A DNA stretch of 31,053 nt from a virus. Made by a program: the position numbers and the translations under genes. Position 1 is the first letter of the stretch. Every line of letters starts with the position of its first letter. Where the stretch lies: the IMG/VR virus record IMGVR_UViG_3300043410_001741, positions 1-31,053 of that record, one strand, 5' to 3'. The notes beneath the pieces are model-generated. The model was not told the DNA's origin. It was given only the letters and a program-made list of their open reading frames with translations, and ran no database searches. Below are positions 3,697 to 20,036 of this stretch, piece after piece.

Positions 3697-4329
3697 TCAA
3701 CGCTTGGATGCCTTGCGGCCTTCGGACATGGCAATCGCCATGGCCTGTTTGCGGCTGGTGACCTCGGGGCCCTTCTTGCTGCCAGAGTGCAGCTCGCCAG
3801 CCTTGAACTCGCCCATGACCTTGCCAATCTTGGCCTGGCCAGCCTTGGACGTCACTTTGCCACCGGTTTTCATGCCGCCGATCATGGGCTGCGCGGGAGC
3901 GACGGGCACCATCTTGCGGCGAACGGATGGCATCTTCACCTGCGTGCGCTCGGTCAGCTCTTCACGCTGCATGCGCGGCGTTTCCATCTTCTCGTGCTTG
4001 ACCATGGCTTGGCGGCTGGGGTATTTCTCGCCGGTGGCTTTTTCGACCACGGGGCCGCCTTTGGCCAGCTTGAGCGTGGGCAAGTTGGGCGCCACAGGCT
4101 TGGAGCCTTTGACACCAGGATTCTTGTTGTCCTTGATTCCAAGCGAGCTCTTGTCGGCGATCATGGTCTGGCCCTTGAAGCCGGGGGCCTGGACTTTGCC
4201 GCCCTTGGCATAACCCGAGTCGCAAGACCCGCCTTTTTCGTACTTCACCGCGCCGCCCTTGGCGTACTTCACGGCGCCGTCTTTGCCTTTGGTGCCGAAG
4301 TCGAACTCTTTGACGTATGTGCAGCCCAT
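3697..4329 (-). CDS. DUF6496-type Lys/Gly-rich phage protein, 210 aa
   Basis: The ATG at 4329-4327 (MGCTYVKEF) is preceded by AGGAGC at 7 bases, which favours it over the longer reading frame starting at 4395. The N-terminal third holds repeats of the type KYAKGG / KYEKGG / GYAKGGKV. The C-terminal block, about residues 168-208, carries GKVMGEFKAGELHSGSKKGP and then SRKQAMAIAMSEGRKA. This closely matches the DUF6496 signature found in many phage structural clusters. The protein is strongly basic and low in complexity, so it could be a DNA- or capsid-associated internal protein, but its function is unknown. It lies between the one-TM protein and the connector promoter. Confidence 0.85.
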   Translation of the reverse strand: MGCTYVKEFDFGTKGKDGAVKYAKGGAVKYEKGGSCDSGYAKGGKVQAPGFKGQTMIADKSSLGIKDNKNPGVKGSKPVAPNLPTLKLAKGGPVVEKATGEKYPSRQAMVKHEKMETPRMQREELTERTQVKMPSVRRKMVPVAPAQPMIGGMKTGGKVTSKAGQAKIGKVMGEFKAGELHSGSKKGPEVTSRKQAMAIAMSEGRKASKR

Positions 4330-4339
4330 AACTTGCTCC

Positions 4340-4582
4340 TTATTCGCGGTCGGAATGACCCTTGAGGTTGTCGATCTTGCGCTCCAGTCGATCAAAACGA
4401 TCGATCAACTGTTGCATATCCGCGCGGAACTCGGCGCGTGTGATGTGGTCCCGGGCAACTTCCTCTCTGGTTTTGTTGAGAAGAATGCTGAGGCGGTCAA
4501 GTTCATTGAACTTGCCTTTCAGCAAAAAACCCATCAAAGCCACGATTGCACTCAGGACAATGTTCCAGACCATCATTTCCAT
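4340..4582 (-). CDS. Small membrane protein with coiled coil (holin-like), 80 aa
   Basis: A single hydrophobic segment at residues 4-21 (MVWNIVLSAIVALMGFLL) is followed by a charged heptad-like helix (residues 23-75: FNELDRLSILLNKTREE, then LIDRFDRLERKIDNL). A short N-terminus, one membrane helix and a cytoplasmic or periplasmic coiled coil are shared by some phage holins and lysis-related proteins, and by small hemolysin XhlA-type proteins. No endolysin or spanin gene lies in this window, so a lysis role is tentative. The start has GGAGC about 8 bases upstream. It sits 10 bases before the DUF6496-type gene in the same operon. Confidence 0.75.
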   Translation of the reverse strand: MEMMVWNIVLSAIVALMGFLLKGKFNELDRLSILLNKTREEVARDHITRAEFRADMQQLIDRFDRLERKIDNLKGHSDRE

Positions 4583-5266: not shown

Positions 5267-6181
5267 TTAGACGCCAGCGGTACCGAACACGCCGCGCGGG
5301 TCGGTCCAGCCAAGCGCGTAACGCTCGGTGGCCTTGTAGCGCATGCTGTCGGTCTCGAAGTCGCCTTCCATGGATTTCTCCAGGCCGCGACGCATCATCA
5401 GCTTCAGACCTTCGGGAGCGTCGGTCTGCACCCACCAGGCGGTGGTGCTGGTGATACGAGACAGGTTGGCTTGACCATCGGCCAGCAAGCCCATCGACTT
5501 CACAGGGTTGATGTCGTTGTCAGCGGTGCCGGTACGCAGCACAGACTTCAGCAGCACCTCAGCCTGGAACACGTTGGAAGGACCGGAGACGATCTTCTTG
5601 GGTGTCAGGCGGATACGCTTGCCGTTGTTGTCCACAGCATTGCGGATCTGGATCAGCATCTGCTCAAGGGACGTCTGCGACAGGGCAGCGGCGGTGGCCA
5701 GCTGGTTGCTGAACGTGCCGTTGACGATCGGGTGAGCCGTGGAAACCAGGGACACGCCGTCACCGCCTGCATACGCGCTGTTGAAGGCGCGGTTCAGGAT
5801 GTTGGCTGCCAAGGTTTCTTTGGTCTCGATCAGGGACTGCGCCAGGTGCTTGGCGTAGGTCTGACCGATACGGATGTGGTCACCGTCCTCGACCAGCACT
5901 TTGGTCAGGGCGAAGGCCAGGCCGTACACCTTGTAGAGGTAGCGCTGCAGGAACAGCACGCCGCCGGACTGGTAGGTCACGGCCATGCCGTCAGGCAGCT
6001 CGGGCGCAGCACCGAAACCGTACAGGACGGGTTCTTCATGGTAGTTGCGCGGGATGCCTTTTTGCTCGCGGAAGACTTGCTTCCACTCGTCAGCACGCTG
6101 CTCATAAACGCCGTCGAACACTTCGTTCAGAATCGGCTCGACTACGGAACGGAAGTCCGTACTACGCATTGGGGTTGCCAT
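5267..6181 (-). CDS. Major capsid protein (HK97-fold, Mu gpT-like), 304 aa
   Basis: The length of 304 residues, the absence of low-complexity sequence and the position after scaffold-like and decoration-like genes fit a major head protein. Recognisable stretches are LPDGMAVTYQSGG (63-74), LAFALTKVLVEDGD (88-101), the helical KHLAQSLIETKETLAANILN (111-130) and STAHPIVNGTFSNQ (147-160). The last is typical of the Mu gpT-like capsid family (HP, then G-T-x-S-N). The C-terminal half contains the conserved pattern of strand, PSNVFQAEVLLKS helix and TTAWWVQTD. The protein self-assembles into the icosahedral shell around the scaffold. AAGGAGG lies 8 bases before the ATG, a strong site suited to high expression. 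No N-terminal prohead protease domain is visible, and no separate protease gene is seen beside it. Confidence 0.9.
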   Translation of the reverse strand: MATPMRSTDFRSVVEPILNEVFDGVYEQRADEWKQVFREQKGIPRNYHEEPVLYGFGAAPELPDGMAVTYQSGGVLFLQRYLYKVYGLAFALTKVLVEDGDHIRIGQTYAKHLAQSLIETKETLAANILNRAFNSAYAGGDGVSLVSTAHPIVNGTFSNQLATAAALSQTSLEQMLIQIRNAVDNNGKRIRLTPKKIVSGPSNVFQAEVLLKSVLRTGTADNDINPVKSMGLLADGQANLSRITSTTAWWVQTDAPEGLKLMMRRGLEKSMEGDFETDSMRYKATERYALGWTDPRGVFGTAGV

Positions 6182-7418: not shown

Positions 7419-8420
7419 TTACGCGCGGTTGTTTTTGTCGTATTCGGCATAGCGTTTTACGTACTTCATTCGAAGCACGGGATCGTCCCAAACGCCTGCG
7501 TCAATCAGAGCCTGCTTGCGCTCTGGGTTGATGTACACCTCGGTGCGGGTGCTGGTTGGTGCATGCTCACGGCCAGAGCCAATCGCAGGGCCGCCACGAG
7601 TCTGGCGTTGCTGGCGGGGCTCGTCGCGGGCGCCACGGTCATCGCCATGGTCGTTGCGGCGCTGGGTCTGCTTGAAGCGCTCGGGCAGGCGGCGGGCAAC
7701 GCGATCGCGCAGCTCGTCCCAGTACTCCTCGGTGTCAGGCCGGAAGCCCTCGCGGTGCAGGGCGCCGTCGATGGCCAGCACAACAGCGCTGTCCTCGTCT
7801 TGGCCCTTGAGGTCGTACCAGGGGTTTTCGCTGATGAACTCCTTGGCGTAGTGCACCGCCATGTCGTCCAAACCGTCGTCTTGCTTGACCGGGCGCTGGT
7901 TGGCCGCCTGCTGCTTGGCAAACGCCAGTTGTTGCGCTTTTTGCAAGGCCTGGTCGCGGTAGCGCATGGCCTGGGTGACGTCGTCCCCGTTGCCAGCGGC
8001 CACGGCCTTGGCGATCACGCGCTCGGCCATCTCGGCCTCATTGCGGGCCTGGGCGATCTGGGCGTCGAGCTGAGACAGGTCGGCCTGGTGCGTGCGCTGC
8101 TCGACGGAGCCCAGGCGGCGCTCAAGGTCGTCGTTGCGCTTGCGCAGGAAGTTCAGCTCCAGCTTGTCGCGGCTGATCGCCTCTTCGCGGCGTTGCTTGC
8201 GCTCGGCCTTTTCCTTGCGGCGGCGTTCGCGGATGGCCTCGCGCTCGGCGTCGTTGCCGTCGCCACGGTTGTCGTCGTCGTTGCCATTGAGGCGCGCATC
8301 GCCGTCGTCATCGTGGCCGTCGTCGGCGTTGTCGTTGGGCAGGTTTTCAACGATGACCAGCTCTTCCCGGTTTTCCGGGTTGTTGCTGTTGTCGTTGTCG
8401 TCTTCGGTGAGTGAAGGCAT
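7419..8420 (-). CDS. Scaffold-like head assembly protein, 333 aa
   Basis: The N-terminal 55 residues are almost all Asp, Asn and Glu (NDNSNNPENREEL, DDGHDDDGDARLNGNDDD). They are followed by a long basic/acidic coiled coil, residues about 58-180 (RERRRKEKAERKQRREE, LRKRNDDLERRLGSVEQR). The C-terminal third is mixed, with a short ordered end (NPERKQALIDAGVWDDPVLRMKYVKRYAEYD) that could contact the capsid protein. Highly charged, helical proteins immediately upstream of capsid genes are typically internal scaffolds that are removed on maturation. AGGAGAAAA lies before the ATG. The Asp-rich codon run gives strong sequence bias (many GAC and GAT codons) and large false frames on the other strand. 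Function is inferred from composition and position. Confidence 0.75.
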   Translation of the reverse strand: MPSLTEDDNDNSNNPENREELVIVENLPNDNADDGHDDDGDARLNGNDDDNRGDGNDAEREAIRERRRKEKAERKQRREEAISRDKLELNFLRKRNDDLERRLGSVEQRTHQADLSQLDAQIAQARNEAEMAERVIAKAVAAGNGDDVTQAMRYRDQALQKAQQLAFAKQQAANQRPVKQDDGLDDMAVHYAKEFISENPWYDLKGQDEDSAVVLAIDGALHREGFRPDTEEYWDELRDRVARRLPERFKQTQRRNDHGDDRGARDEPRQQRQTRGGPAIGSGREHAPTSTRTEVYINPERKQALIDAGVWDDPVLRMKYVKRYAEYDKNNRA

Positions 8421-8438: not shown

Positions 8439-8903
8439 TTATTGGCAGGCCTCGCAGGTGCCTTCGCCGGAGAGGTCGCAGGCTTTGCCGAGGGGGAAGT
8501 CGTCGTCGTGGGCAGCCTTGGCGGCCAGCTTGCTGCGCAGCTCGTAGCCCATGAGCGGCCAGATTTTGGCCACGGCATTCTGGCGCGCGATCTTCTTGCC
8601 GATTTCGGCGTCGAAGTTCTCGGGGCTGGCGCAGGCCGACTCGCCGGTGACGGTAAAGCCGTTGCGCAGAACCAACACGCAGAATGTCAGCAGGTCAAGA
8701 GGTGCTTTGCTTGCCTCAAACACGCCAGCCTCAATGTCAGGCGAGTAATCTTTGGCCTTTGCAATCACAGCGCCAAGCGTGCCGTGCGCAGCGGTGAAAT
8801 ACACCTCTTCGGCGATGTTGGCCTCAATGTCCGCAGGCGTGATGCGCGCGGCCGTCTTGCCCTTGGCTTGGATTTCCTGTTCGATTTGTGCGTCGGTGCT
8901 CAT
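8439..8903 (-). CDS. Gp49 family protein (N4 Gp49 / Sf6 gene 66 family), 154 aa
   Basis: Residues about 25-130 match the phage Gp49/66 family by eye: an N-terminal helix, LLTFCVLVLRNGFTVTGESA (71-90), and FDAEIGKKIARQNAVAKIWP followed by LMGYELRSKL (97-126). The family is widespread in phages and its members have no agreed function. The last residues carry two Cys (GTCEACQ), which may bind metal. The gene overlaps the RyR-domain gene upstream by an ATGA junction, and the three products (GroES-like, RyR, Gp49) seem to form one translational unit ahead of the scaffold. Confidence 0.88.
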   Translation of the reverse strand: MSTDAQIEQEIQAKGKTAARITPADIEANIAEEVYFTAAHGTLGAVIAKAKDYSPDIEAGVFEASKAPLDLLTFCVLVLRNGFTVTGESACASPENFDAEIGKKIARQNAVAKIWPLMGYELRSKLAAKAAHDDDFPLGKACDLSGEGTCEACQ

Positions 8904-9265
8904 GCAGCGTCTCCTGTTGATTTTTGGATATCGCGCAGGGCGTGCACCACCGCGCGGAAGATAAAGTCCTTGGCCTGCTGCTCACGCGACAGCATGTCAA
9001 ACGGCACGATGCAGTGGTGCGTCTTGGCTTCAGGGTCTTTGGTTGGGCCGTAAACCCAGCCTTCAGCGACTTTTTGCGCCATCCAGCTCTCGTGGCTGGC
9101 CTCGGGACCGACGTTGTTTTCGGTGTGGAGCTTGACGCCAAGCATGGCGCTGTCGCGTTGCCACTGCGGCGCGTCTTCCCAGGCAGGCTGGCTCATGTCC
9201 CCCAAAGACTGGCAGTAAGCGCGGTTCACCTCGTGGCAAACGCGCGCGATCATTTCGTTGCTCAT
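8900..9265 (-). CDS. RyR-domain phage protein, 121 aa
   Basis: The protein is essentially one RyR (ryanodine-receptor-repeat) domain, residues about 8-112. Visible signature: ASHESWMAQKVAEGWVYG (56-73), KDPEAKTHHCIVPFDML (76-92) and a final helix KDFIFRAVVHALRDI. RyR domains occur as stand-alone small proteins in many phages; their bacterial function is unknown, though ligand or nucleotide-derivative binding has been proposed. GAGGGGGC precedes the ATG at 9265. It ends in an ATGA overlap with the Gp49 gene and starts 9 bases after the GroES-like gene. Confidence 0.9.
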   Translation of the reverse strand: MSNEMIARVCHEVNRAYCQSLGDMSQPAWEDAPQWQRDSAMLGVKLHTENNVGPEASHESWMAQKVAEGWVYGPTKDPEAKTHHCIVPFDMLSREQQAKDFIFRAVVHALRDIQKSTGDAA

Positions 9266-9274
9266 GGCGCCCCC

Positions 9275-9685
9275 TCAGATGAAAGCACGGATGGCGAGCG
9301 GATCGCCGGTGACCTGGCCGATGATGTCCAGGTCGTTGAAGATGACGAACAGGGCCGACTCGCCGTTGGCCAGGGGCACTTCCCAGCGATCGCCGCCGTA
9401 CTTGGGCACGCGAACGTAGTCGCCCGGCTTGCACCAGCTGCCTTCCGGCCAGGAGTCCATGGTGTTTCGGTTCTTGAACGCAAGAGCGCCAACAGAGACA
9501 ACGCGGGCCACCTGGGTGTTCCACTTCTCGGTGTCACGCGAGCCGTTGTCGATGATGATGCCCGAGGCGGTCTTGGTCTTGGGGGTGCGAATCTGCACCA
9601 GGACGCGGCTTCCAAACGGGATGATTCCCGGGGATGCGTCGGGGAATGCCTCCCGCATCGCGTCAATCAGCACTTCAGCTGTCAT
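9275..9685 (-). CDS. GroES-like co-chaperonin, 136 aa
   Basis: The order of elements is that of the Cpn10 fold: PFGSRVLVQI (23-32), a mobile-loop-like RTPKTKTASGIII (33-45), QVARVVSVG (58-66), KPGDYVRVPKYGGDRWEV (86-103) and a closing strand ALFVIFNDLDIIGQV. The SGIII segment takes the place of the GG-I-V-L tripeptide by which GroES docks on GroEL. At 136 residues it is longer than GroES (about 97), as is T4 gp31. By analogy with gp31 it could replace host GroES so that GroEL can fold the phage capsid protein; that is inference. No groEL gene is seen. AAGGAGCAGAAG precedes the ATG. Confidence 0.87.
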   Translation of the reverse strand: MTAEVLIDAMREAFPDASPGIIPFGSRVLVQIRTPKTKTASGIIIDNGSRDTEKWNTQVARVVSVGALAFKNRNTMDSWPEGSWCKPGDYVRVPKYGGDRWEVPLANGESALFVIFNDLDIIGQVTGDPLAIRAFI

Positions 9686-9768: not shown

Positions 9769-9956
9769 CGGTCGCCGTGTCGCTCGTCGTCCAGAAGGGC
9801 AAGCAGGGCTGCAATGGCCGCTTCGTATCCAGCGACCATGCCCACGCGGTATCCGTACTCGAAAGCGTCACGCTCGACCGGGCGCTTGAGAGCCTCAAGC
9901 GCAAATGCCTGCTGGTCAGCCTTGAGCTTTCCGAGCAGGCGGTCCTCGATGGCCAT
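9759..9956 (-). CDS. Small unknown protein, 65 aa
   Basis: The protein MAIEDRLLGKLKADQQAF... is mostly helical and charged, with an Ala-rich helix GYRVGMVAGYEAAIAALLALLDD near the C-terminus. Its start codon shares one base with the TGA of the 45-aa gene (TGATG), showing translational coupling. It resembles small helical phage proteins encoded after the portal, but no function can be given. The stop codon lies in a hairpin. Confidence 0.7.
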   Translation of the reverse strand: MAIEDRLLGKLKADQQAFALEALKRPVERDAFEYGYRVGMVAGYEAAIAALLALLDDERHGDRDL

Positions 9957-10093
9957 CAGGCGGGGGTCTTAGGCATCGTGGGGGCAGACGGCAAGGTCTG
10001 GCCGGTCACGGGCTGGCCAGCGGCCATGCGGTGGTGCTGCTTGACCAGTGCGCCAGTCATTGGCACGGTGCCTTGGGTGGGTTTGTCGCTCAT
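9956..10093 (-). CDS. Very small phage protein, 45 aa
   Basis: ATG at 10093-10091, stop at 9958-9956. It starts MSDKPTQGTVPMTGALVKQH and ends in a Pro/Thr-rich tail (LPSAPTMPKTPA). AAGGAG lies 8 bases before the ATG and the stop overlaps the start of the next gene (TGATG). These two features make it very likely a real gene despite its length. Mostly disordered; function unknown. Confidence 0.7.
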   Translation of the reverse strand: MSDKPTQGTVPMTGALVKQHHRMAAGQPVTGQTLPSAPTMPKTPA

Positions 10094-10114
10094 GGAGTGC
10101 TCCTTGGGGTTGGA

Positions 10115-12643
10115 TTATCGTGTGCCCGGGTTGATCCCGGTACCGGTGCTGACGGCGATTTTCTCGCCGGTGGCAATTTCTGCTGCAGCCATGCGCATGG
10201 CCGTGGCGTTGTCTGAGTCGTTCATCTGCAGGCGGGCATCAATTTCAGCGGCCGTGCGCTGATTCTCGGATGCTTGGCGCAACTGCTCGGACTGGAACTC
10301 CTCGGCGCGAGACTGCTGCTTGTCGGCCAGAGCGGCGGCATCCAGCTGCGACTTCTGCGCGGCTTTTTGTTGCTCGAGCTGCAATCGTGCCGCGTCGGTC
10401 TGGGCCCGCTGCTGCAGTGCAAGCTGCTGCACCTGCGCATTGAGCTGCGCAATCTGCATGCTGTTGTCTTGCGGCATCTGTGGCGGCTGAGGTGCAAACT
10501 GCTCGGCCATCTTGTCGATCTGAGCCAGCTCCTGCGCAAACTGCGCCAGCTGCTGCTCGATGATCTGCTGGACCTTCACGATCACGCGAACCTGCTGCTC
10601 GGCATCGCCGTCGGCGATCAGGTGCTCACGCTCGGCGCGCTGCACAGCCTCGTGTGCTTGCGTGAGGTAAAAGTTCAGCAGGTGGTCGCGCAAGTGCTGC
10701 GCCATCGGGTAGATGTAAGTCTTGACGATGGCCGGGTTCATGCCAAACATCGGCGACTTCAGGAACGCCAGGTGCGTCTGGATGTGCGCCACGTGGTCCT
10801 GCTTGGGCAGCACGTAGACCGGACGGCCCATCGAGGCGGCCACGTTCTCGCTCACCGGGTCAACGTCGTCCTGGCCAGGCTGAGGCTGCAGCACATCGTC
10901 TGGGCTGAGCTTCAGGTTGCGTAGGAACATTTCCTCGACCTTGCGCAGGTCGTACATCTGTGGCATGGCGGCCGCGCGGGCCTGCACGGCCTGGACCTGA
11001 GCGAAGCGCTGGGCCTCGCTGAAAATCGCCGGGTCGCTCACAGGCACAACGTCCATTGGGCCGTCGAAGTCCTCGGGCTTGATCTCCAGGCCAGATTCCT
11101 CGGCCTCGATATCCTCGTCGGTCAGGTAGGCGCTGTTGATGCGGTGCAGGATCTGGAACACGCGCGCCATCGAGTTGTGCAGGCGCGAATGGATGGAGCT
11201 GAACACCACCATGCCCTGCTCAATGAGCGCCAGGGTTGTGCCCACCGGAGCGTTGGGGTTTTGGTCGGACAGTTTCTCGAACGATGTCTGCACCACGCCC
11301 CTGCCAGCGTCCACCAGGAAGCCAAGCAGCTGGAACAGCGTCGGGCTCGGTCCGTTGAACGGAAGCGGCATGGCCAGCTTGCGAATGTCGTCGACCAGGG
11401 CGCCGCCCTCGATCTCGACCACCTCGGTCGGCTGCACGTTGATGGTCTGCCCACCAGGCCCGCCCTTGAGCTTGATCATGGTCGGGATGTTCTGGATGTG
11501 GGCCGAGTCCAGCAGCGCGCGCAGGGCGCCGGTGGCCGCGCCGGACAGGCCGCCGATCATGTGGGTGAGGCCAATCGGGTAGGCGCCGCGCCATGGCACG
11601 AACGGGAACTCGACAATCCAGTCCAGCTCCTTGCGGCGCTTGTCCTCGGGCTCCCAGTTGCGGTACAGGGCCAGGGCCTTGCGCGTGGACTTGTCGATGC
11701 TGATGATGTACGGCTCCATGCCGTCACCGAAGTCCAAGTGGGTGTAAATCTCAAAGATGGTGCGCAGGCCGTCCTCGTTGTAGCTGGTGTCCTCGCGGCC
11801 CTCGATCTTGTCGTTGGCCACACTGGCGCGGCTGAACTCGATCTGATCGGGCGAGCCAATGACCACATCGGCGTACATCCCGGCCTTGACGCGGCGGTTG
11901 AACTCGGACTTGGTGACGTACTGCACGTGCGTCTTGCGCTCGGCCGAGTAAAAGTTGGTGGCCGCAAACGGCAGGTAAATGTCGTCGATCGGGATGAACT
12001 CAGCGGTCGGGCGCTTCCACTGCGGCGACCACATGAGCTTCAAGTACTGCCCGCCGCCCAGGGGCAATTGTGTCGAAAGCTGCTCCAGCTCACCGCGCAG
12101 CTCAGGCATCTGCTGCGTGGTCTGCCAGTTCATGAAGTCGGCCTTGCGACGGGCTTTTTCCAGCTTTTCGGGCTCGACCTCGCCCAGAATCTTGGACTTC
12201 ACGGGACCAGAGGGGGGAAACACCTCCTTCATGAAGCGGGCGCTGAAGTCGACGCAGGCCTCGACCAGCATCGGGTGCACGACCTTATTGGCGCCGGTGA
12301 ATTGCGCGCCGCCGGGGGCATCGTCGCCCAGGCCGGTGCGGCGCAGGCCTTCCTCGTAGAGCTTGTCGCGCTTCTCGCGGGCGTCCTTGTCGCGCTCGAT
12401 CTTGTCGAGCAGGTCGCTGGTCGCGTCGGCCAGCATGCTGCGATCGACCTCGTCGACGATGTTGGCAAAGTGGGCCTTCTTGTCGGCCACATCCTGCTCG
12501 TTTTTCATGCGGATGACCGCACCACCGTCGTCGGTGTCCTCGACCTCCATCTCATCCTCGGTCGGCAGGGTGACGGTCTCGCCGCGCTGCTCTTCCTCGG
12601 AGTCGTTGACGTCGGTGCCGTTGTTCAGAAGTTCGTCTGCCAT
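10115..12643 (-). CDS. Portal protein, 842 aa
   Basis: The size, the position after the terminase and before the head genes, and the sequence pattern identify the portal, the dodecameric ring through which DNA is packaged and which joins head to tail. An acidic N-terminus (residues 1-60) is followed by a helical arm and VVHPMLVEACVDFSARFMKE. Further on are LGGGQYLKLMWSPQWKRP, FIPIDDIYLPFAATNF (wing/clip region) and a helical part FEKLSDQNPNAPVGTTLALIEQ. The last 150 residues are a Gln/Ala-rich coiled coil (IAQLNAQVQQLALQQRAQ), probably the barrel that reaches into the head. At 842 residues it is larger than most portals (about 400-700), as in podoviruses with long barrels. The gene starts 2 bases after the stop of the PcfJ-like gene. 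Confidence 0.88.
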   Translation of the reverse strand: MADELLNNGTDVNDSEEEQRGETVTLPTEDEMEVEDTDDGGAVIRMKNEQDVADKKAHFANIVDEVDRSMLADATSDLLDKIERDKDAREKRDKLYEEGLRRTGLGDDAPGGAQFTGANKVVHPMLVEACVDFSARFMKEVFPPSGPVKSKILGEVEPEKLEKARRKADFMNWQTTQQMPELRGELEQLSTQLPLGGGQYLKLMWSPQWKRPTAEFIPIDDIYLPFAATNFYSAERKTHVQYVTKSEFNRRVKAGMYADVVIGSPDQIEFSRASVANDKIEGREDTSYNEDGLRTIFEIYTHLDFGDGMEPYIISIDKSTRKALALYRNWEPEDKRRKELDWIVEFPFVPWRGAYPIGLTHMIGGLSGAATGALRALLDSAHIQNIPTMIKLKGGPGGQTINVQPTEVVEIEGGALVDDIRKLAMPLPFNGPSPTLFQLLGFLVDAGRGVVQTSFEKLSDQNPNAPVGTTLALIEQGMVVFSSIHSRLHNSMARVFQILHRINSAYLTDEDIEAEESGLEIKPEDFDGPMDVVPVSDPAIFSEAQRFAQVQAVQARAAAMPQMYDLRKVEEMFLRNLKLSPDDVLQPQPGQDDVDPVSENVAASMGRPVYVLPKQDHVAHIQTHLAFLKSPMFGMNPAIVKTYIYPMAQHLRDHLLNFYLTQAHEAVQRAEREHLIADGDAEQQVRVIVKVQQIIEQQLAQFAQELAQIDKMAEQFAPQPPQMPQDNSMQIAQLNAQVQQLALQQRAQTDAARLQLEQQKAAQKSQLDAAALADKQQSRAEEFQSEQLRQASENQRTAAEIDARLQMNDSDNATAMRMAAAEIATGEKIAVSTGTGINPGTR

Positions 12644-12645
12644 GT

Positions 12646-14838
12646 TTACCCTGCGTTGAGTGCGTTGAGATCGCCCACGATGGCGTCGATTCTAGCCGGG
12701 TCGAAGTCTGCTGTGTGGGAATTCGCAACCAGGCCGCCGTCAGCATAGGCTCGAACGTCCCCGGCTTGGCCACCGTCTGCGAATCGGTAGGCCGACGCTG
12801 GGTCCTGCATCGCGTCGCTGTTGTAGATGTTGGAGCCGACCAGGCCACCGTCGGCGTATTTCTGGACCAGTCCGCCGAGCGCGAAGCCTTCCGCGTTTTT
12901 GCGCACGATGTCCTTGTACTCGTCCTCAGTGACAAACCGCTGGCCACCGCGCATCTCAGCTGGCACGCCCGCTTGATGAAGATCAACAAGGCCAGCGTTC
13001 TTCAGATCGCCGACATTGCTCCAGTTTTGACTGCGCACAAAGTCCCGAACGGCAGGCAGGTACTCGGGATTGGGTGCGCGGTTGGATTTTCCTTTGATCT
13101 GGACAATGTCCTCTGCGGGTTTGATGCCCTTGTTTTGGATGAACATGTCAAACGCCGCGTCGGTGTTGTCCATGTTGTAGCCACCAATCTCATCAAACTC
13201 TTTGTGAAGTTTTCGGGCCTCATCTGGGCCCACAGCTGCGGTAACGTCGTCCCATGTTTTCAGTGGTCGCGGGGCAACCTCAATCGTCACGTGCGGCTGG
13301 CCCTTCTTGTCGCGCAGGCTGAAAATCTTGGACCGGCCCTCGACCACGTCAGGACAGTAGCCGCCGACGCAGTGGCCCATGGTTTCGCCCTCGTATTTGA
13401 GGGCATCCTCCAGGGCCTTGACCGATTCGTCCATTTCGACCGTTTTTTTGCGGTTGAAGTCGTCCATGGTCCGACGCACAAAGTCGTTGAACTCGCGAGT
13501 ACCCTCTTCGAGCCCCTCGTCGAATGCCATGTCTTCTGCGACCTCGCGCCCCATTCTTTCGTTAAAGTCAGGGGGCAAATCCATCTCTGGTTTTTCAACG
13601 CCAATCTTGCGGCCAGTTTCCTTTGGGGCTTTGAGCTCCACCCACTTGAAGCCTTGGTCCGGGTACTCCTTAATCACATGCGTGGCGGGCCCCATGGCGC
13701 GGGCCATGTCGGCCTCAGCTTTGTTGGCCGCACGCCACTCGTTGATCTTGGCCACGCGCTCGACCGCCTGGGGCACGGTGACCTTCTCCAGGTCGGAGTA
13801 CTTCAGGCGCAGGTTCTCTGGCAGGCCGGACGCGGGGTTGATGGCGTTTTTCAGCTCGTCGACCAGGTGCTGCATGCCAAGCTCTTCATTCGCGCCGCCA
13901 AGAAGTTCGTACACGCGAGTTTCAGGTGGGACTTTTGCAAGCCATGGGTCTTTTTCAACAAGCTCGGGATATCCGCGCGTCAAGTCGGAGGCTTGAAGTT
14001 CGTTGAAGAAAGTGTCGGCACGTTTTTCCCATCGCTTTGCAAGGTCGGATTGCGCCATGCCTTCTTCGGGGAATCCAGCGGCGATGCGTTGTTTTGAAAC
14101 GCTGTAGCCTGTTGGCGTTGGGTCGTAGTGCAAAACGCCGCGCTCGGCCAGCGCACGCAATGGGTCCTCGGGTGTGGCCATTTCGTTGCGCATGTACTTG
14201 CCGAGCTTGGTTTCAAGCCAGCGGTTCATGGCGGCTTCGGGCTCAAGGCGCGCACGCTCTCTCGCAAAAACAGCCGGGTCCATTGCGACGCCAGCTTCAA
14301 CGTTTTGAGCGTAAGCGGCATCAAGGTCGCGCAAACGAGCGGCAGGGTCTGAGCCAACTACTCGCGTTTTCATCGGCTCGATGACCCGCTCAATCGTTCC
14401 AGCCAGGAAGTTGCCGCCCTTGGGTTTCACCACGTTCACGGCCGGTTGCCCTGCGGCCATGACGAAGTCACGCCCAGCGCGCGACACCGCCGACGGCAGG
14501 CCAGCGATCGCACGCAGTGGGGAGCCGGGCCCGGTGTAGAACCCGCCGCCAATCTGACCGGCACCAGTTGCCGCGCGGCCAACCGGAGTCTCGCTCACGC
14601 TGCGCAGCGGCAGGCGTCGCTCAATGTCCTCGCTGGTCGGCAGGAATGTTTGCTCGGACAAGCCCGGCAGCATGCGCACCAGGGACTCAATATCGCCCGG
14701 GGCGCCCAGCACGCCAGAGGCCAAACCGCGCAGGGCGGCAAGCGGTGCGTCGGCGGAGGCGCGGCGGTCGTTGAGCTCAGGACGGCGGCGGCCAGCGGAG
14801 CGGTAGCCGATATACGGCTGGTTCAGATCATCGGCCAC
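12646..14838 (-). CDS. Large phage protein with a PcfJ-like motif, 730 aa
   Basis: The start is taken as GTG at 14838-14836 because AAGGAG lies 7 bases upstream; an ATG-less longer frame to 14913 would overlap the upstream gene by 86 bases. The N-terminal 130 residues are Arg/Pro/Gly-rich. A helical middle follows. Near residues 480-520 there is YEGETMGHCVGGYCPDVVEG, then SLRDKKGQPHVTIEV. This is the HCVGxY and (S/V)xRxxxxPxxTIE pattern of the PcfJ-like family. The last 90 residues contain short repeats FALGGLVQKYADGGLVG, FADGGQAGD and YADGGLV, as at the ends of several phage structural proteins. It lies between a JAMM-type gene and the portal, with an 11-base overlap to the former. It could be a virion-associated or injected protein; that is inference. 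Confidence 0.75.
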   Translation of the reverse strand: MADDLNQPYIGYRSAGRRRPELNDRRASADAPLAALRGLASGVLGAPGDIESLVRMLPGLSEQTFLPTSEDIERRLPLRSVSETPVGRAATGAGQIGGGFYTGPGSPLRAIAGLPSAVSRAGRDFVMAAGQPAVNVVKPKGGNFLAGTIERVIEPMKTRVVGSDPAARLRDLDAAYAQNVEAGVAMDPAVFARERARLEPEAAMNRWLETKLGKYMRNEMATPEDPLRALAERGVLHYDPTPTGYSVSKQRIAAGFPEEGMAQSDLAKRWEKRADTFFNELQASDLTRGYPELVEKDPWLAKVPPETRVYELLGGANEELGMQHLVDELKNAINPASGLPENLRLKYSDLEKVTVPQAVERVAKINEWRAANKAEADMARAMGPATHVIKEYPDQGFKWVELKAPKETGRKIGVEKPEMDLPPDFNERMGREVAEDMAFDEGLEEGTREFNDFVRRTMDDFNRKKTVEMDESVKALEDALKYEGETMGHCVGGYCPDVVEGRSKIFSLRDKKGQPHVTIEVAPRPLKTWDDVTAAVGPDEARKLHKEFDEIGGYNMDNTDAAFDMFIQNKGIKPAEDIVQIKGKSNRAPNPEYLPAVRDFVRSQNWSNVGDLKNAGLVDLHQAGVPAEMRGGQRFVTEDEYKDIVRKNAEGFALGGLVQKYADGGLVGSNIYNSDAMQDPASAYRFADGGQAGDVRAYADGGLVANSHTADFDPARIDAIVGDLNALNAG

Positions 14839-15643
14839 AAGAGCACTCCTTGATGTAGTTGAGGGGCGCACGCACTGCGCCGCCTTTTTGGAATTTCTTG
14901 GAACGCAGCACATCGACCGCAGGTCCTTCTATGCGCCGGAACAACTCGGTGTCGGTCGACTCGGGCGACGGCGTGAGCTGCTTGTTTCCAAGCTGCAGCT
15001 CGTGGCGGCCAAGGCCCTGGCCAGAGCGGTACCGGAGCAGGGTCAGCGGGGAAACATCCTCGAGCAGCTCACCAAGGTCGCCGCCGTAGTCGAAGTACTC
15101 GCGGAAAAGCGGGTCGTCCTGGATCGAGCGGAAGGCGCCCTTGCTGCCTGCGCGCTGCAGCTCAAAGCGCGCGGCGTCCAGCATCTTTGGGTCGAAAACG
15201 CGCTGCGGGTTGTCGGTGGCAAAGAAGTTGTACGAGGTTCCACGGCGCATGCCGTCGCGCGTCGGCGGCACGGCAATCAGCGTGCGAACGTCATGGCCGG
15301 TCCTGGTCGGCGGGTAGTTGGTGCTGTAGAAGCTGAAGTCTTGGCGGCTCGGGGCGGTCTCAAAGATCGAGAAGCCGGATCCGGGGTGCGTGTGGAAGTC
15401 CAGGATGGCCGGACCACCAGGAGCGCGCACTGCCTGCCGAAGGTCGTAGGCGTTGGGCGTCACGCTGGACTCGGTGCCGCGTGTGATCGCCGACGCGCCG
15501 CCTTCGTTGGCCAGGCCAATGACCGAGTGCTCGCGCCCGGTCTGCGCCGTCTGGCGCAAGGCCTCGCGGACGACGTCGGCTTGCTGTGGTGCCTCACGCG
15601 CAAGAAGTGCGCGCAGCTTTGCGAGGACTGAAACTGGAGGCAT
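14828..15643 (-). CDS. JAMM/MPN metalloprotease-like protein, 271 aa
   Basis: Residues about 30-140 read as an MPN (JAB1/Mov34) domain: REHSVIGL (37-44) supplies a candidate catalytic Glu (E38), ILDFHTHPGSGF (80-91) gives the zinc-binding HxHP (H84, H86), and APSRQD (97-102) gives the P-S-x-x-D with zinc ligand D102. The distance from H86 to D102 is longer than in the standard HxHx(10)D motif, so activity is not certain. JAMM enzymes cleave isopeptide or peptide bonds, often removing ubiquitin-like tags; phage lambda gpK uses one for tail-tip maturation. The remaining sequence is helical and ends in NYIKECSCGR. Here the gene lies in the head module. It follows the 91-aa gene by 3 bases and overlaps the PcfJ-like gene by 11 bases. 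Confidence 0.75.
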   Translation of the reverse strand: MPPVSVLAKLRALLAREAPQQADVVREALRQTAQTGREHSVIGLANEGGASAITRGTESSVTPNAYDLRQAVRAPGGPAILDFHTHPGSGFSIFETAPSRQDFSFYSTNYPPTRTGHDVRTLIAVPPTRDGMRRGTSYNFFATDNPQRVFDPKMLDAARFELQRAGSKGAFRSIQDDPLFREYFDYGGDLGELLEDVSPLTLLRYRSGQGLGRHELQLGNKQLTPSPESTDTELFRRIEGPAVDVLRSKKFQKGGAVRAPLNYIKECSCGR

Positions 15644-15646
15644 GAT

Positions 15647-15922
15647 TTACCACTTCACTTTGTTGGCCCAGTAAGCCGCGCTCGACGGCCCCTTGGCGAT
15701 GTTCTTGGCGTGGCGGGCTTTGAACGCGTCGCGCTTGGCGGTGGTGGCTGCCGACTCGCCAGCCTTGGGCTTGCCCGCCGTCTTGGCGCCTTGCTCGCCG
15801 AAGCGGATCACCTTCTCCTGGCCATCAAAGCAGGCTTTGACCACGTGGGATTTCGTTGGGTGGCCCGGCGTGCGCTTGGGTTTGTTGCAGTCCATCTCGG
15901 ACTTTTTCACCGGCCGCGTCAT
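15647..15922 (-). CDS. Small basic conserved phage protein, 91 aa
   Basis: The sequence has a motif recurring in phage genomes: SHVVKACFDGQEKVIRFGEQ (25-44), then KRDAFKARHAKNIAKG and SAAYWANKVKW at the end. It is Lys/Ala-rich and probably binds nucleic acid or is a minor virion component, but no function is established. The start shares an ATGA with the 57-aa gene upstream. Confidence 0.8.
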   Translation of the reverse strand: MTRPVKKSEMDCNKPKRTPGHPTKSHVVKACFDGQEKVIRFGEQGAKTAGKPKAGESAATTAKRDAFKARHAKNIAKGPSSAAYWANKVKW

Positions 15923-16092
15923 TTCGACTTCCTCGCGGCGCGCATGTTGTCGACCAGGTTGGGGTAAGGTCGCCCGGCCTTCTCGGCTGCGCGCTTGGCG
16001 CCGGACTTGGCGCTGGGCGAGAGCGCCTTGGGTGCGCCCAAAGAGCTGGGGCGCTTTTTGTCCCAGATGGGCTTGGGTGTTTTAAACGGCAT
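15919..16092 (-). CDS. Very small basic phage protein, 57 aa
   Basis: ATG at 16092-16090, giving MPFKTPKPIWDKKRPSSLG and a Lys/Ala/Ser-rich rest (SPSAKSGAKRAAEKAG). The start overlaps the last 11 bases of the terminase gene in another frame, and GGAAAGG lies upstream. A longer frame to 16230 runs inside the terminase gene and is less likely. It ends in an ATGA with the 91-aa gene. Function unknown; the charge suggests nucleic-acid contact. Confidence 0.7.
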   Translation of the reverse strand: MPFKTPKPIWDKKRPSSLGAPKALSPSAKSGAKRAAEKAGRPYPNLVDNMRAARKSK

Positions 16093-17665
16093 ACGGGTTG
16101 ACCTTTCCTTCACGACGATGGGGCCGATCTTCGTCAACGTCGCGTGCCTGTGGCAGTTCGAACCACCCGTCGTTTTTGAGGTAGATGACCGCCTGCGTGA
16201 AGGTGTCCACATAGTCGTCATGCTCCGCAACGGGGAACTTCGCCACTTGGGTCATAAACGGCTGGGCCCAGCTCACAGGCTGGCCGGGGTTCTTGGCAGA
16301 CTCCGGGATCCACAGCAGTCCAAGCTCCAACGTCGGCGCGGTCTGGTGTGCCCTCGACACCTTGTCCGCTTGTCCGGGATTGTAGCCAACGGCCGGGACC
16401 TTGGCCAGACGCAAGTCCTGCAGCAGCGACTGCCCCGATGCCTTGGCCTCAACCAGCAGCCGGTCTGGCTTGCGGCCCTTGGTGGGCATGCCAGCCTTGG
16501 CCGAGCTGTCGGCGCCGTACTCCGAGCGCCAGTCCCGAATCACCCGGGCGCGCAGGTCCGGATACCCGAGGTGCTCATCCCAGGCGTCCAGCAGCATGGC
16601 GTTGCGCTGGCCTCGGTGCGAAAACACGCCCCAGACCGTGCAGGCCGTCGGGTCGCCAGTCGTGCGCTCAGTGAAGGCGCAGTCGTAGCTTTGCAAGATG
16701 TACTCAAAGGGCGGCAGGCGCTGAGCCACGGGCCAGAGCTGAAAGTGCTGCGTCTTGAGGATGCCGCCCTCGGTTGGCGTGGGATCCTGCTGGAGCTGGC
16801 CCGAGGCGCCGTAGGTGCCCAGCAGCTGCTTGAGCTTGGTGATTTCGGCCTCGCCAAAGCGATCAGGGCAGATCAGCTCACCCTTCGTGCGGCGCGGGTC
16901 GTAGGGCCCAAGCACCGTGCGCCTGGCCTTGCCGTCCCACTCGGCCGGGATGCAGATGTGCTCCCAGCCGCCAATGTCGTCGATGATGTGCCCGCTGATG
17001 TCCTTCTCGTGCAGGCGCTGCATGACCGTCACCATGGCGTCGGTCTTGGGGTTGTTCAGTCGCGTGGACCAGACCTGGTCGAACCACTCAAGCGCGGTTT
17101 CACGCATCGCGTCGGACTGCGCGTCCTGGGCGCCGTGCGGGTCGTCAAGGATCAGGCGCGAGCCGCCCTCACCCGTGGCGGTACCGCCAACCGAGGTGGC
17201 CAGGCGATAGCCGGTCTTGTTGTTCTCGAAACGCTGCTTGGCGTTTTGGTCACCGGCCAGCGCAAACATGTGCCCCCAGCGCTCCTGGTACCAAGGCGAC
17301 TGAATTAGGCGCCTGGCTTTCAGGTTGTCCCGGATGGACAGCGTGCCCGAATAGGACGCGGCGAGGAACTTCTGCTCGGGCGAGGTGAGCCACTCCCAGC
17401 AGCACCAGGCCACCGAGACGATGGTGGACTTGGAGTGGCGCGGCGGGATGTTGATCAGCAGCCGCTGAATCTCGCCGGAGCTCACGGCCTCCAGGTGCTC
17501 GCAGATCGCCTCGATGTGCCAGCTCGGCACGAAGGGCACGCCGGGCTCCATCACGTGCCAGGCCTGCTGCACGAACTCGTACAGGCTGGCGCTGGCCTTG
17601 CGCCGGGCCTGCTCCTTGGCGATCAGGTCCAGCATGACGGCGGGGGAAACGCTCACTGCGGCCAC
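16082..17665 (-). CDS. terL: Terminase large subunit, 527 aa
   Basis: The DNA-packaging motor: an ATPase followed by an RNase H-like nuclease. Walker A is the variant PPRHSKS at residues 74-80 (R in place of the canonical G/K arrangement seen in some families). SRLILDDPHG (169-178) is Walker B, with D174 and D175. The nuclease has SYDCAF (D328), LLVEAKASG (E407) and EHDDYVD (D483/D484), the usual triad of acidic residues. The length (527) is normal. The start is GTG at 17665-17663, 13 bases inside the 3' end of the 66-aa gene, with GAGGCG upstream. The gene follows a terminase-small-type gene by two small genes, and the motif set resembles the terminase group that cuts by a headful or site-specific rule, which cannot be decided here. 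Confidence 0.95.
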   Translation of the reverse strand: MAAVSVSPAVMLDLIAKEQARRKASASLYEFVQQAWHVMEPGVPFVPSWHIEAICEHLEAVSSGEIQRLLINIPPRHSKSTIVSVAWCCWEWLTSPEQKFLAASYSGTLSIRDNLKARRLIQSPWYQERWGHMFALAGDQNAKQRFENNKTGYRLATSVGGTATGEGGSRLILDDPHGAQDAQSDAMRETALEWFDQVWSTRLNNPKTDAMVTVMQRLHEKDISGHIIDDIGGWEHICIPAEWDGKARRTVLGPYDPRRTKGELICPDRFGEAEITKLKQLLGTYGASGQLQQDPTPTEGGILKTQHFQLWPVAQRLPPFEYILQSYDCAFTERTTGDPTACTVWGVFSHRGQRNAMLLDAWDEHLGYPDLRARVIRDWRSEYGADSSAKAGMPTKGRKPDRLLVEAKASGQSLLQDLRLAKVPAVGYNPGQADKVSRAHQTAPTLELGLLWIPESAKNPGQPVSWAQPFMTQVAKFPVAEHDDYVDTFTQAVIYLKNDGWFELPQARDVDEDRPHRREGKVNPYAV

Positions 17666-18146: not shown

Positions 18147-18613
18147 TCTTGGGATCCTTTGGCTTTCATCATCAAGGCTTGCATCTGCGCCAGCTCGGCG
18201 TCGCTCAGGCCCTTGAAGTCCACGCTGGCCACAGCGATCGGGGCACCGTTTGCGCCGGTGTGCTCAACGTGCTGCGTTTCTTTCCAACCGAGCTGGGTCG
18301 CGCCCCAGTACTTCATGAGGTTGGAGTCGCCAGCAAGCGCCTTCTTGAAGATGCCGCCAGCGATCTGGGCGTTGGCCGTTGCCTTGCCGACAACAAGCTC
18401 TGCCGCAAAGTGCTCGCGCAAAGTATCGATGTGAATTCCATCGCGAATCAGCGCGGCAATTTGGTGAAACGGTAATCCGTAGCCGGAAAGCGCTTTAACT
18501 TGCTTGCGCTCGTTTTCAGTCGGAGAAAATGCTTTTCTTCCGGCTCCTTCTCTCGCTCCGCCGTTTTCCTTGATGCTTTTTCGCTTAAGAGTTGGTTTTT
18601 CAACTTTGGTCAT
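18143..18613 (-). CDS. terS: Terminase small subunit-like protein, 156 aa
   Basis: The N-terminus has the signature GGAREGAGRK (18-27), found at the start of many phage terminase small subunits. The helical segment ERKQVKALSGYGLPFHQIAALI (35-56) reads as a helix-turn-helix, followed by DTLREHFAAELVVGKATANA and ALAGDSNLMKYWGATQLGWK. This arrangement fits the DNA-recognition component that binds packaging sites and feeds DNA to the large subunit. A near-perfect GGAGG lies 7 bases before the ATG. It overlaps the methyltransferase gene upstream (ATGA) and sits two genes ahead of terL. Confidence 0.83.
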   Translation of the reverse strand: MTKVEKPTLKRKSIKENGGAREGAGRKAFSPTENERKQVKALSGYGLPFHQIAALIRDGIHIDTLREHFAAELVVGKATANAQIAGGIFKKALAGDSNLMKYWGATQLGWKETQHVEHTGANGAPIAVASVDFKGLSDAELAQMQALMMKAKGSQE

Positions 18614-19980
18614 TTTTTACCTCCGTCTTTTTTGGCCTTGTCTGCCTTGCCAATTTCGCTGCCAATCAGCGAGTTGGGGCTGCGCTCGCCCATCACCTCC
18701 GTGAAGGACCGACCGTCGGACTCCAGGTGCGCGTGCTTGCCTGTGAACTCTTGCCAGCGGGTGACGATCACGTCGCAGTATTTTGGGTCCAACTCCATGA
18801 GCCGTGCAACCCGGCCGTTTTTCTCGGCTGCGATCAGGGTGGTGCCTGAGCCGCCAAAGCTGTCGAGCACGATGTCGCCGCCCTTGGTGTTGTTGAGCAG
18901 CTGGTACTCGAACAGGGCCACGGGCTTCATGGTCGGGTGCTCGCCGTTGCGGGCTGGCTTGTCGAACTCGAGGATGGTGGTCTGCTTGCGGTCGGACGCC
19001 CATAAGTGGCCAGCGCCTTCCTTCCAGCCGTACAGGCAGGGCTCGTGCTGCCAGTGGTAGTCCTGGCGGCCCATGACGAGCGACGATTTCTTCCAGATCA
19101 GGCACTGGCGCACGGCCCAGCCCGCGTCCTTAGCGGCGCCTCGGAAGTTGTAGCCCTCGCTGTCGGCGTGCCAGATGTAGAACACGGCGCCCGGCTTCAT
19201 GACGGCGTCGGCGGCGGTGTAGGCGTCGCGCAGGAACTGCCGGAATTGGTCGTCGCCCATCGAGTCGTTTTTGATGGTGAGCTTTTCCTTGGTGCCGCCC
19301 TCGTAGGCCACGTTGTAGGGCGGGTCGGTCAGCCATATGTCCACCGGTTGGCCGTCGCACAGGCGCTCCAGGTCTGCGATGCTGGTGCTGTCGCCGCAAA
19401 GCAGCCGGTGCTTGCCCATGACCCAGACGTCGCCCTGGACGGTCACGGGGTTGACCGGAACGGGTGGTGCATCGTCCGGGTCGGTGAGGCCCTCGGGCAG
19501 CTCCTCGGGCATGAGCGCGTCGATCTCGTCCTGGCTGAAACCGGTGAGCTCAACGTCGAATCCCATCTCCATGAGGTCCTTGAACTCCAGCGCCAGCATT
19601 TCGTTGTCCCACCCGGCGTTCAGGGCGAGGCGGTTGTCGGCCACGATGTAGGCGCGTTTCTTGGCCTCGGACCAGCCCTTGGCGACCATGACCGGGACCT
19701 GGGTCATTCGCAGGCGCTGTGCGGCCAACGTGCGGCCGTGTCCGGCAATGATGCCGCCTTGCTCGTCGACCAGGATCGGCGTGGTCCAACCCCACTCTTT
19801 GATCGAGGCCACCAGCTGCCCGATCTGCTCATCGGAGTGGGTGCGGCTGTTGCGTGCGTAGGGGATCAGTTTTTCGATCGGCCAGTGCTCGATTTTGTCG
19901 GCAGGATTTCCGGTAAGGATTTCGCCGGTAATTTGTGGGGATTGATTTTCCCCTGTTTTTTCAGTCTGCTGTTTTTTCAT
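18610..19980 (-). CDS. ParB-domain / DNA methyltransferase fusion, 456 aa
   Basis: Residues 31-110 form a ParB/sulfiredoxin-like domain: WPIEKLIPYARNSRTHSDEQ (33-52) and IIAGHGRTLAAQRL (77-90), where GHGR is the typical ParB box. The C-terminal part (about 184-425) is an amino-methyltransferase of the beta arrangement, with the catalytic motif TDPPYNV (218-224) before the SAM motif VLDSFGGSGTTLIAAE (371-386). The enzyme methylates adenine-N6 or cytosine-N4 in DNA. No cognate restriction enzyme lies nearby, so it may protect phage DNA or mark packaging sites; the ParB part may guide it to DNA. The start ATG at 19980 has GGAG 6 bases upstream; a TTG four codons earlier is less likely. It overlaps the terminase-small gene (ATGA), suggesting a packaging link. 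Confidence 0.92.
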   Translation of the reverse strand: MKKQQTEKTGENQSPQITGEILTGNPADKIEHWPIEKLIPYARNSRTHSDEQIGQLVASIKEWGWTTPILVDEQGGIIAGHGRTLAAQRLRMTQVPVMVAKGWSEAKKRAYIVADNRLALNAGWDNEMLALEFKDLMEMGFDVELTGFSQDEIDALMPEELPEGLTDPDDAPPVPVNPVTVQGDVWVMGKHRLLCGDSTSIADLERLCDGQPVDIWLTDPPYNVAYEGGTKEKLTIKNDSMGDDQFRQFLRDAYTAADAVMKPGAVFYIWHADSEGYNFRGAAKDAGWAVRQCLIWKKSSLVMGRQDYHWQHEPCLYGWKEGAGHLWASDRKQTTILEFDKPARNGEHPTMKPVALFEYQLLNNTKGGDIVLDSFGGSGTTLIAAEKNGRVARLMELDPKYCDVIVTRWQEFTGKHAHLESDGRSFTEVMGERSPNSLIGSEIGKADKAKKDGGKK

Positions 19981-20036
19981 GCAGGGCTCCAAGTGGTGGG
20001 TTGTGAATTATGCAACGGTTTGCTGGGTTGTGGCGC

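Follow-up and report, generated by a model that had tools for sequence, protein, structure and literature searches.

The window analysed here, a stretch of 31,053 nucleotides comprising positions 1 to 31,053 of the IMG/VR virus record IMGVR_UViG_3300043410_001741, encodes a JAMM/MPN-domain protein of 271 amino acids (14828–15643, minus strand, ATG start), which is identified from its motifs, a homologue alignment and an AlphaFold2 model. The gene lies in a head module with the order terminase large subunit (terL; 16082–17665, minus strand), a 91-amino-acid phrog_7595 protein (15647–15922, minus strand), the JAMM protein, a PcfJ-like protein and the portal protein (10115–12643, minus strand), where the phrog_7595 gene forms the upstream edge and the portal gene the downstream edge of a variable cassette. 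A preliminary description of this DNA put the JAMM gene between terminase and portal, which is right as to the head module, although the phrog_7595 gene separates it from terL. The PcfJ-like protein (730 amino acids; 12646–14838, minus strand; PcfJ PF14284, E 3e-8) does overlap the JAMM gene as described, but from its GTG start at 14838 the overlap extends over just 11 base pairs (bp), and the 755-amino-acid open reading frame in the program-made list is a mechanical upstream extension of this gene.

The JAMM protein contains E38 within the segment GREHSVIG, H84-T-H86-P87 and P98-S99-x-x-D102, where E38 is the candidate catalytic residue, H84, H86 and D102 are the predicted zinc ligands, and S99 is a conserved serine. 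The pattern HxHPx(5-14)SxxD arises in just 49 of 200,000 shuffles of the protein. Relatives were drawn from IMG/VR contigs, with an alignment of 18 and a wider set of 28 distinct sequences, and across the latter, at identities down to ~41–42%, E38, H84, T85, H86, P87, P98, S99 and D102 are invariant. The zinc-triad motifs read in the preliminary description are thus borne out, and its choice of E38 is backed by this conservation together with the predicted fold. The ratio of nonsynonymous to synonymous substitution rates (dN/dS) of the family is 0.13–0.25, which indicates purifying selection on the gene. The typical His-Ser spacing in JAMM enzymes is 7, as in Rpn11, while the loop from H86 to S99 varies in this family from 9 to 14 residues and SxxD never changes, which argues that the long spacing is tolerated and that D102 remains a ligand. 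The objection that D102 would lie too far from the metal is not borne out; in the predicted structure the residue lies in the initial turn of the helix formed by residues 100–109, as in MPN enzymes. The gene product is apparently an intact JAMM (MPN+) peptidase domain, of predicted activity. No homologue was found in 84,980 bacterial and archaeal genomes, nor among cultured phages when three family members were used as tblastn queries against the whole phage collection, and in these collections the family appears to be confined to phages.

In the AlphaFold2 model (predicted local distance difference test, pLDDT, 85.9; predicted template modelling score, pTM, 0.86), E38 stands just before the strand of residues 39–44, the HxH motif ends the strand of residues 80–85, and residues 253–271 form a disordered tail (KGGAVRAPLNYIKECSCGR). 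Foldseek returned BubCD as the best match (E 5e-4, probability 1.0), followed by BRCC36, JAMM1 and AMSH, while VIA-align gave Z scores of 8.3 for BubCD, 6.4 for archaeal Rpn11, 6.1 for both CSN5 and Cap3, 5.8 for JAMM1 and 5.1 for RadC, with BRCC36 within 5–6.4. The single Z values are modest, so the weight rests on the uniformity of the list, nearly all of whose 50 rows are MPN proteins. The expected MPN fold is thus recovered by prediction and by both structure searches; a sequence profile search of the PDB with the family gave no meaningful match, and support for the fold thus comes from structure prediction. BubCD, Cap3, JAMM1 and the Rpn11 homologue share with the window protein the MPN fold and the E / HxH / SxxD active site, but are only 10–17% identical to it over the aligned part. 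The window enzyme differs from them in an H-S loop longer by 2–7 residues, in extra helical N- and C-terminal parts and in being phage-borne, with no ubiquitin-like partner gene seen nearby.

Placement in a sequence family is less definite. Prok-JAB (PF14464) matches 16 of the 18 aligned members weakly (best E 5e-4), none being seen over the curated cut-off (14.1 bits for the window protein, against a cut-off of 25 bits), while RadC (PF04002) is absent among the Pfam families matching these members at E up to 10 and has no match in the window record. The PADLOC and NCBIfam searches gave nothing relevant to the JAMM protein. The Tox-JAB-2/DUF4329 group (PMC3482391) resembles the family in its E, H[ST]H, S, D active site, which occurs in effectors of conflict systems and is reported from Caudovirales too, but it differs in that only one of the 18 members matches it, at E 0.27. 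These placements bear on the possibility that an injected JAMM protein acts on nucleic acid or nucleotides, as nuclease-like roles have been proposed for the RadC and Tox-JAB clades (PMC3482391, PMC5512222). Such an action would agree with the presence of RadC among the fold matches, but ubiquitin-type JAMMs rank higher there, by small differences in Z, and in view of the Prok-JAB leaning and the missing RadC match it is considered improbable.

The preliminary description also associated known phage JAMM enzymes with tail assembly. Lambda gpK is indeed a tail assembly protein with JAMM/JAB-type and NlpC/P60 domains. However, the structure search also found JAB folds in phage 'minor capsid proteins' of BFVD (A0A8S5MT14, A0A8S5N7P5 and others), so that a JAMM domain near a phage head is not unprecedented by itself; these proteins share the JAB/MPN fold and a head-associated annotation with the window protein, but belong to other phages, have other architectures and are 10–13% identical. 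A tail-assembly peptidase of the gpK kind, which the common JAMM/JAB domain might suggest, is extremely improbable here, as the gene lies between terL and portal, outside the tail module, no NlpC/P60 partner is seen, and close relatives whose head and tail-side genes are homologous do without it. Unlike gpK, the window enzyme is encoded in the head module and is accessory.

Its accessory nature is established by relatives, whose loci (given below by their L numbers) were gathered via portal and capsid proteins, the terL–portal interval being read in each. One of them, L037 (IMGVR_UViG_3300021226_000131; 54,365 bp), has a capsid protein 99.7% and a portal protein 99.4% identical to those of the window, but a 150-amino-acid DUF6973 protein (PF22322, E 2e-9) fills the position of the JAMM protein. 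A profile search detected no JAMM across the whole L037 contig, nor in 14 further whole contigs, many of 54–59 kb; this search was without an internal positive control, while the same family profile run locally matched in 45 loci. JAMM was not detected within the fetched locus in 43 of the 49 non-redundant loci whose capsids are at least 85% identical, and the cultured, plaque-forming Caulobacter phages RW, RLK, KcrB and GB2A (PMC11053796), with capsids 85% identical, are also without it. The terL–portal interval of phage RLK (L195) contains a transfer RNA (tRNA) and no JAMM-like gene; it is tRNA-Val that stands where relatives have the cassette, and this genome carries two separate 'large terminase subunit' annotations with an S-adenosylmethionine (SAM)-dependent methyltransferase between them.

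These relatives decide the proposal that the JAMM protein is the prohead maturation protease, cutting capsid, scaffold or portal proteins in head assembly. The proposal drew on the gene's location in the head module and on the lack of a visible prohead protease, and searches for the S78, S49, ClpP-like and Mu-like I families indeed found none in the window record. However, phage DSL-LC04 and four near-complete relatives, of which two carry JAMM and two do not, were equally negative for all four families, so the missing protease is a property of the lineage, uninformative on JAMM. The major capsid protein (Phage_capsid_4/gpT-like; 5267–6181, minus strand) shows homology from residue 6, with no sign of a long propeptide. 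A general prohead maturation protease is ruled out by the capsid-identical relatives without the gene, and any such role in head assembly is judged very improbable.

The presence of JAMM requires 12 changes on a tree of 79 portal proteins, at least 10 of them forced by supported branches, and in five pairs of sisters whose portals are nearly identical one member has JAMM and the other lacks it (window/L037, L041/L042, L058/L059, L071/L074 and L105/L106). In DNA the window and L037 are 93% identical as far as the slot gene's start codon and 94% identical again from its last codons on, which is a clean DNA-level exchange of JAMM for DUF6973. The cassette takes ~30 arrangements in 83 non-redundant intervals, with JAMM before or after the PcfJ-like protein, DUF6973, ART-like domains, a PcfJ variant and other domains among its contents; it is empty in 13 intervals, 12 of which have capsids 87–89% identical. 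JAMM has a gene of its own in the window, whereas in relatives single open reading frames encode phrog_7595-PcfJ variant-JAMM (L023), PcfJ-JAMM (L022, L030) or JAMM fused to an Alt-like ART domain (L006; phrog_802, E 3.6e-5). Judged from these sequences, JAMM is an optional, interchangeable domain of a variable terL–portal cassette. The apparent second JAMM matches in L006 and L022 seem to be profile alignments broken in two, and no second domain is claimed from them.

Such scattered occurrence on the portal tree would also be expected of a late-expressed, moron-like accessory gene whose product works in the virion-producing cell without ever being packaged. That explanation is nevertheless improbable, as JAMM is part of the head operon in every relative with sufficient context, is fused in frame with phrog_7595 and Alt-like ART domains, and shares its tail with other slot proteins. 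These tails are of two kinds. Proteins that occupy the JAMM slot, namely JAMM, DUF6973, ART-like (L071) and GREG-type (L059, L145) proteins, end in a common GGxVxxPLNxIKECSC or a shorter form of it, while cassette proteins adjoining the portal end in GG...[FY]DPxxIDxI..., which also occurs between domains inside polyproteins, exchanged or fused domains being joined by '[FY]xxGGxV...DPxxIDxI' linkers. Among 17 window proteins the GG motif is found only in the JAMM and PcfJ-like proteins and a DUF6496-type protein (3697–4395, minus strand; three copies of [FYL]xxGGxV), and not in terL, portal, scaffold or capsid. In L022 the JAMM protein runs directly into the portal and still keeps its Cys-x-Cys tail, which weakly favours a functional role of the tail. 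The shared tails and linkers may thus be read in two ways, either as a signal for loading or as a conserved seam of recombination.

A further reading is that the enzyme processes polyproteins by cutting xxGG|xV linkers, as JAMM enzymes cut after ubiquitin-like GG, to free PcfJ-like and other domains. It would explain why the domains that would be released are often in cis with JAMM in one fused protein (L008, L018, L019, L022, L023, L029–L036) and why GG motifs are frequent in cassette proteins, and the polyvalent protein DdrB of phage P1 is processed before packaging (PMC5512222). However, polyproteins of L039, L077 and L125 have the same linkers without any JAMM, and the density of GG motifs, 2.3 per 1000 amino acids in JAMM-free cassettes against 2.7 in JAMM-containing ones, is about equal, which argues against GG motifs as JAMM cleavage sites. 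As JAMM-specific sites they are unsupported, and polyprotein processing is accordingly rated improbable.

The cassette is best compared with the polyvalent proteins of Iyer et al. 2017 (PMC5512222), which are multidomain, combinatorial effectors containing ART and peptidase domains; their genes lie with other late virion genes, and they are predicted to be packaged and injected. The order terL–cassette–portal likewise sets the cassette among late virion genes, and unrelated effector domains combine in one polypeptide in its relatives. The peptidases described in that work are zincin-like, assemblin-like, DD and LonC, with JAB only as the RadC clade; the window system differs in its non-RadC JAMM with a PcfJ-like partner, its fixed terL–portal slot and its shared tails. 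T4 Alt, the prototype of the Alt-like ART family, is packaged and injected (PMC5512222). We therefore favour, with moderate confidence, the explanation that JAMM is an optional cargo domain, an apparently intact peptidase in a variable cassette and probably a virion-packaged effector of the polyvalent type. By analogy with T4 Alt and the polyvalent proteins, the cassette proteins would be packaged and then injected with the DNA; their tails and GG-DPxxID segments may mark them for procapsid loading, or may be linkers kept by recombination; and the injected JAMM would be a peptidase or isopeptidase acting on a host target early in infection.

The nearest folds are enzymes that deconjugate ubiquitin-like proteins (BubCD, Cap3). 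Conjugates of this kind are therefore a reasonable candidate target, as the preliminary description also proposed, possibly those that serve host defence (CBASS Cap2/Cap3, BIL/Bub type). This is the weakest step, and taken on its own an action on ubiquitin-like conjugates is possible but doubtful. The fully specified version, in which a short tail common to the slot proteins (GG-DPxxID or GG-KECSC) directs them into the head for later injection, JAMM serving as a virion-delivered deconjugase that counters anti-phage defences, is unlikely.

Several points weigh against the favoured explanation. That the proteins are packaged and injected is deduced from where the genes lie, what they are fused to and what is known of analogous proteins. 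The shared tail contains one junction of the window/L037 swap and so could be a recombination anchor instead of a signal. The absence of JAMM was tested over whole contigs in 15 records and elsewhere in the fetched locus. Zhang et al. (PMC3482391) make the case that JABs of the effector type may be nucleases, not peptidases.

Among open-licence PMC papers, no direct precedent was found in the literature on PcfJ/JAB phage proteins and phage-encoded deconjugases, nor any description of the terL–portal cassette. Combinatorial, late-encoded phage effectors are already known; the non-RadC JAMM variant is, as far as found, new among the literature searched. The idea of a new maturation protease thus gives way to a testable system, in which capsid-identical phages carry different enzymes in one slot. 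This variation is a natural experiment on what phages deliver with their DNA and how cargo is addressed to the head, and it bears on whether a JAMM enzyme counters bacterial ubiquitin-like defence systems. The cultured Caulobacter Riverwalkvirus phages, having the same capsid type, are a possible laboratory chassis.

The other cassette proteins show features of their own. The model of the PcfJ-like protein, a weak one (pLDDT 62.5), has a disordered N-terminus of ~135 amino acids, a disordered GG-motif tail (650–714) and a last helix (714–729) that lies in FDPARIDAIVGDLNALNAG. Its residues H489-C490-V-G-G-Y-C495 and H516 are invariant among relatives, and the protein may be an enzyme, of unassigned type; in some phages it is swapped for a variant with KLCTTIGKQAGWCTQ. 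The PcfJ-like protein of L011 (~9900–12128) carries additional C-terminal sequence that includes an HExxH-like segment, LGHELYHV, and is possibly a fused zincin peptidase. DUF6973 (PF22322) is the commonest substitute for JAMM in the slot (L037, 3090–3539; L042, L052, L055, L063 and L084). The phrog_7595 protein, which is fused to a cargo polyprotein in L023–L028 and L125, occurs in many cyanophages and roseophages, and its C-terminus weakly resembles the tail of head maturation proteases (phrog_976, E 0.013).

Elsewhere in the window, a 333-amino-acid protein (7419–8420, minus strand) is putatively a separate scaffolding protein, as deduced from position and composition with no family match. 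The head module also contains a GroES-like co-chaperonin gene (9275–9685, minus strand) that is conserved among relatives, DSL-LC04 and Caulobacter phage RLK included, and a gene for a small protein (8900–9265, minus strand) not present in all relatives, which we take, by eye, to resemble an RyR domain. The repeated YAKGGxV motifs of the DUF6496-type protein resemble those of the cassette proteins. A putative ParB-like/DNA methyltransferase gene (18610–19992, minus strand), read by eye, adjoins the small terminase gene.

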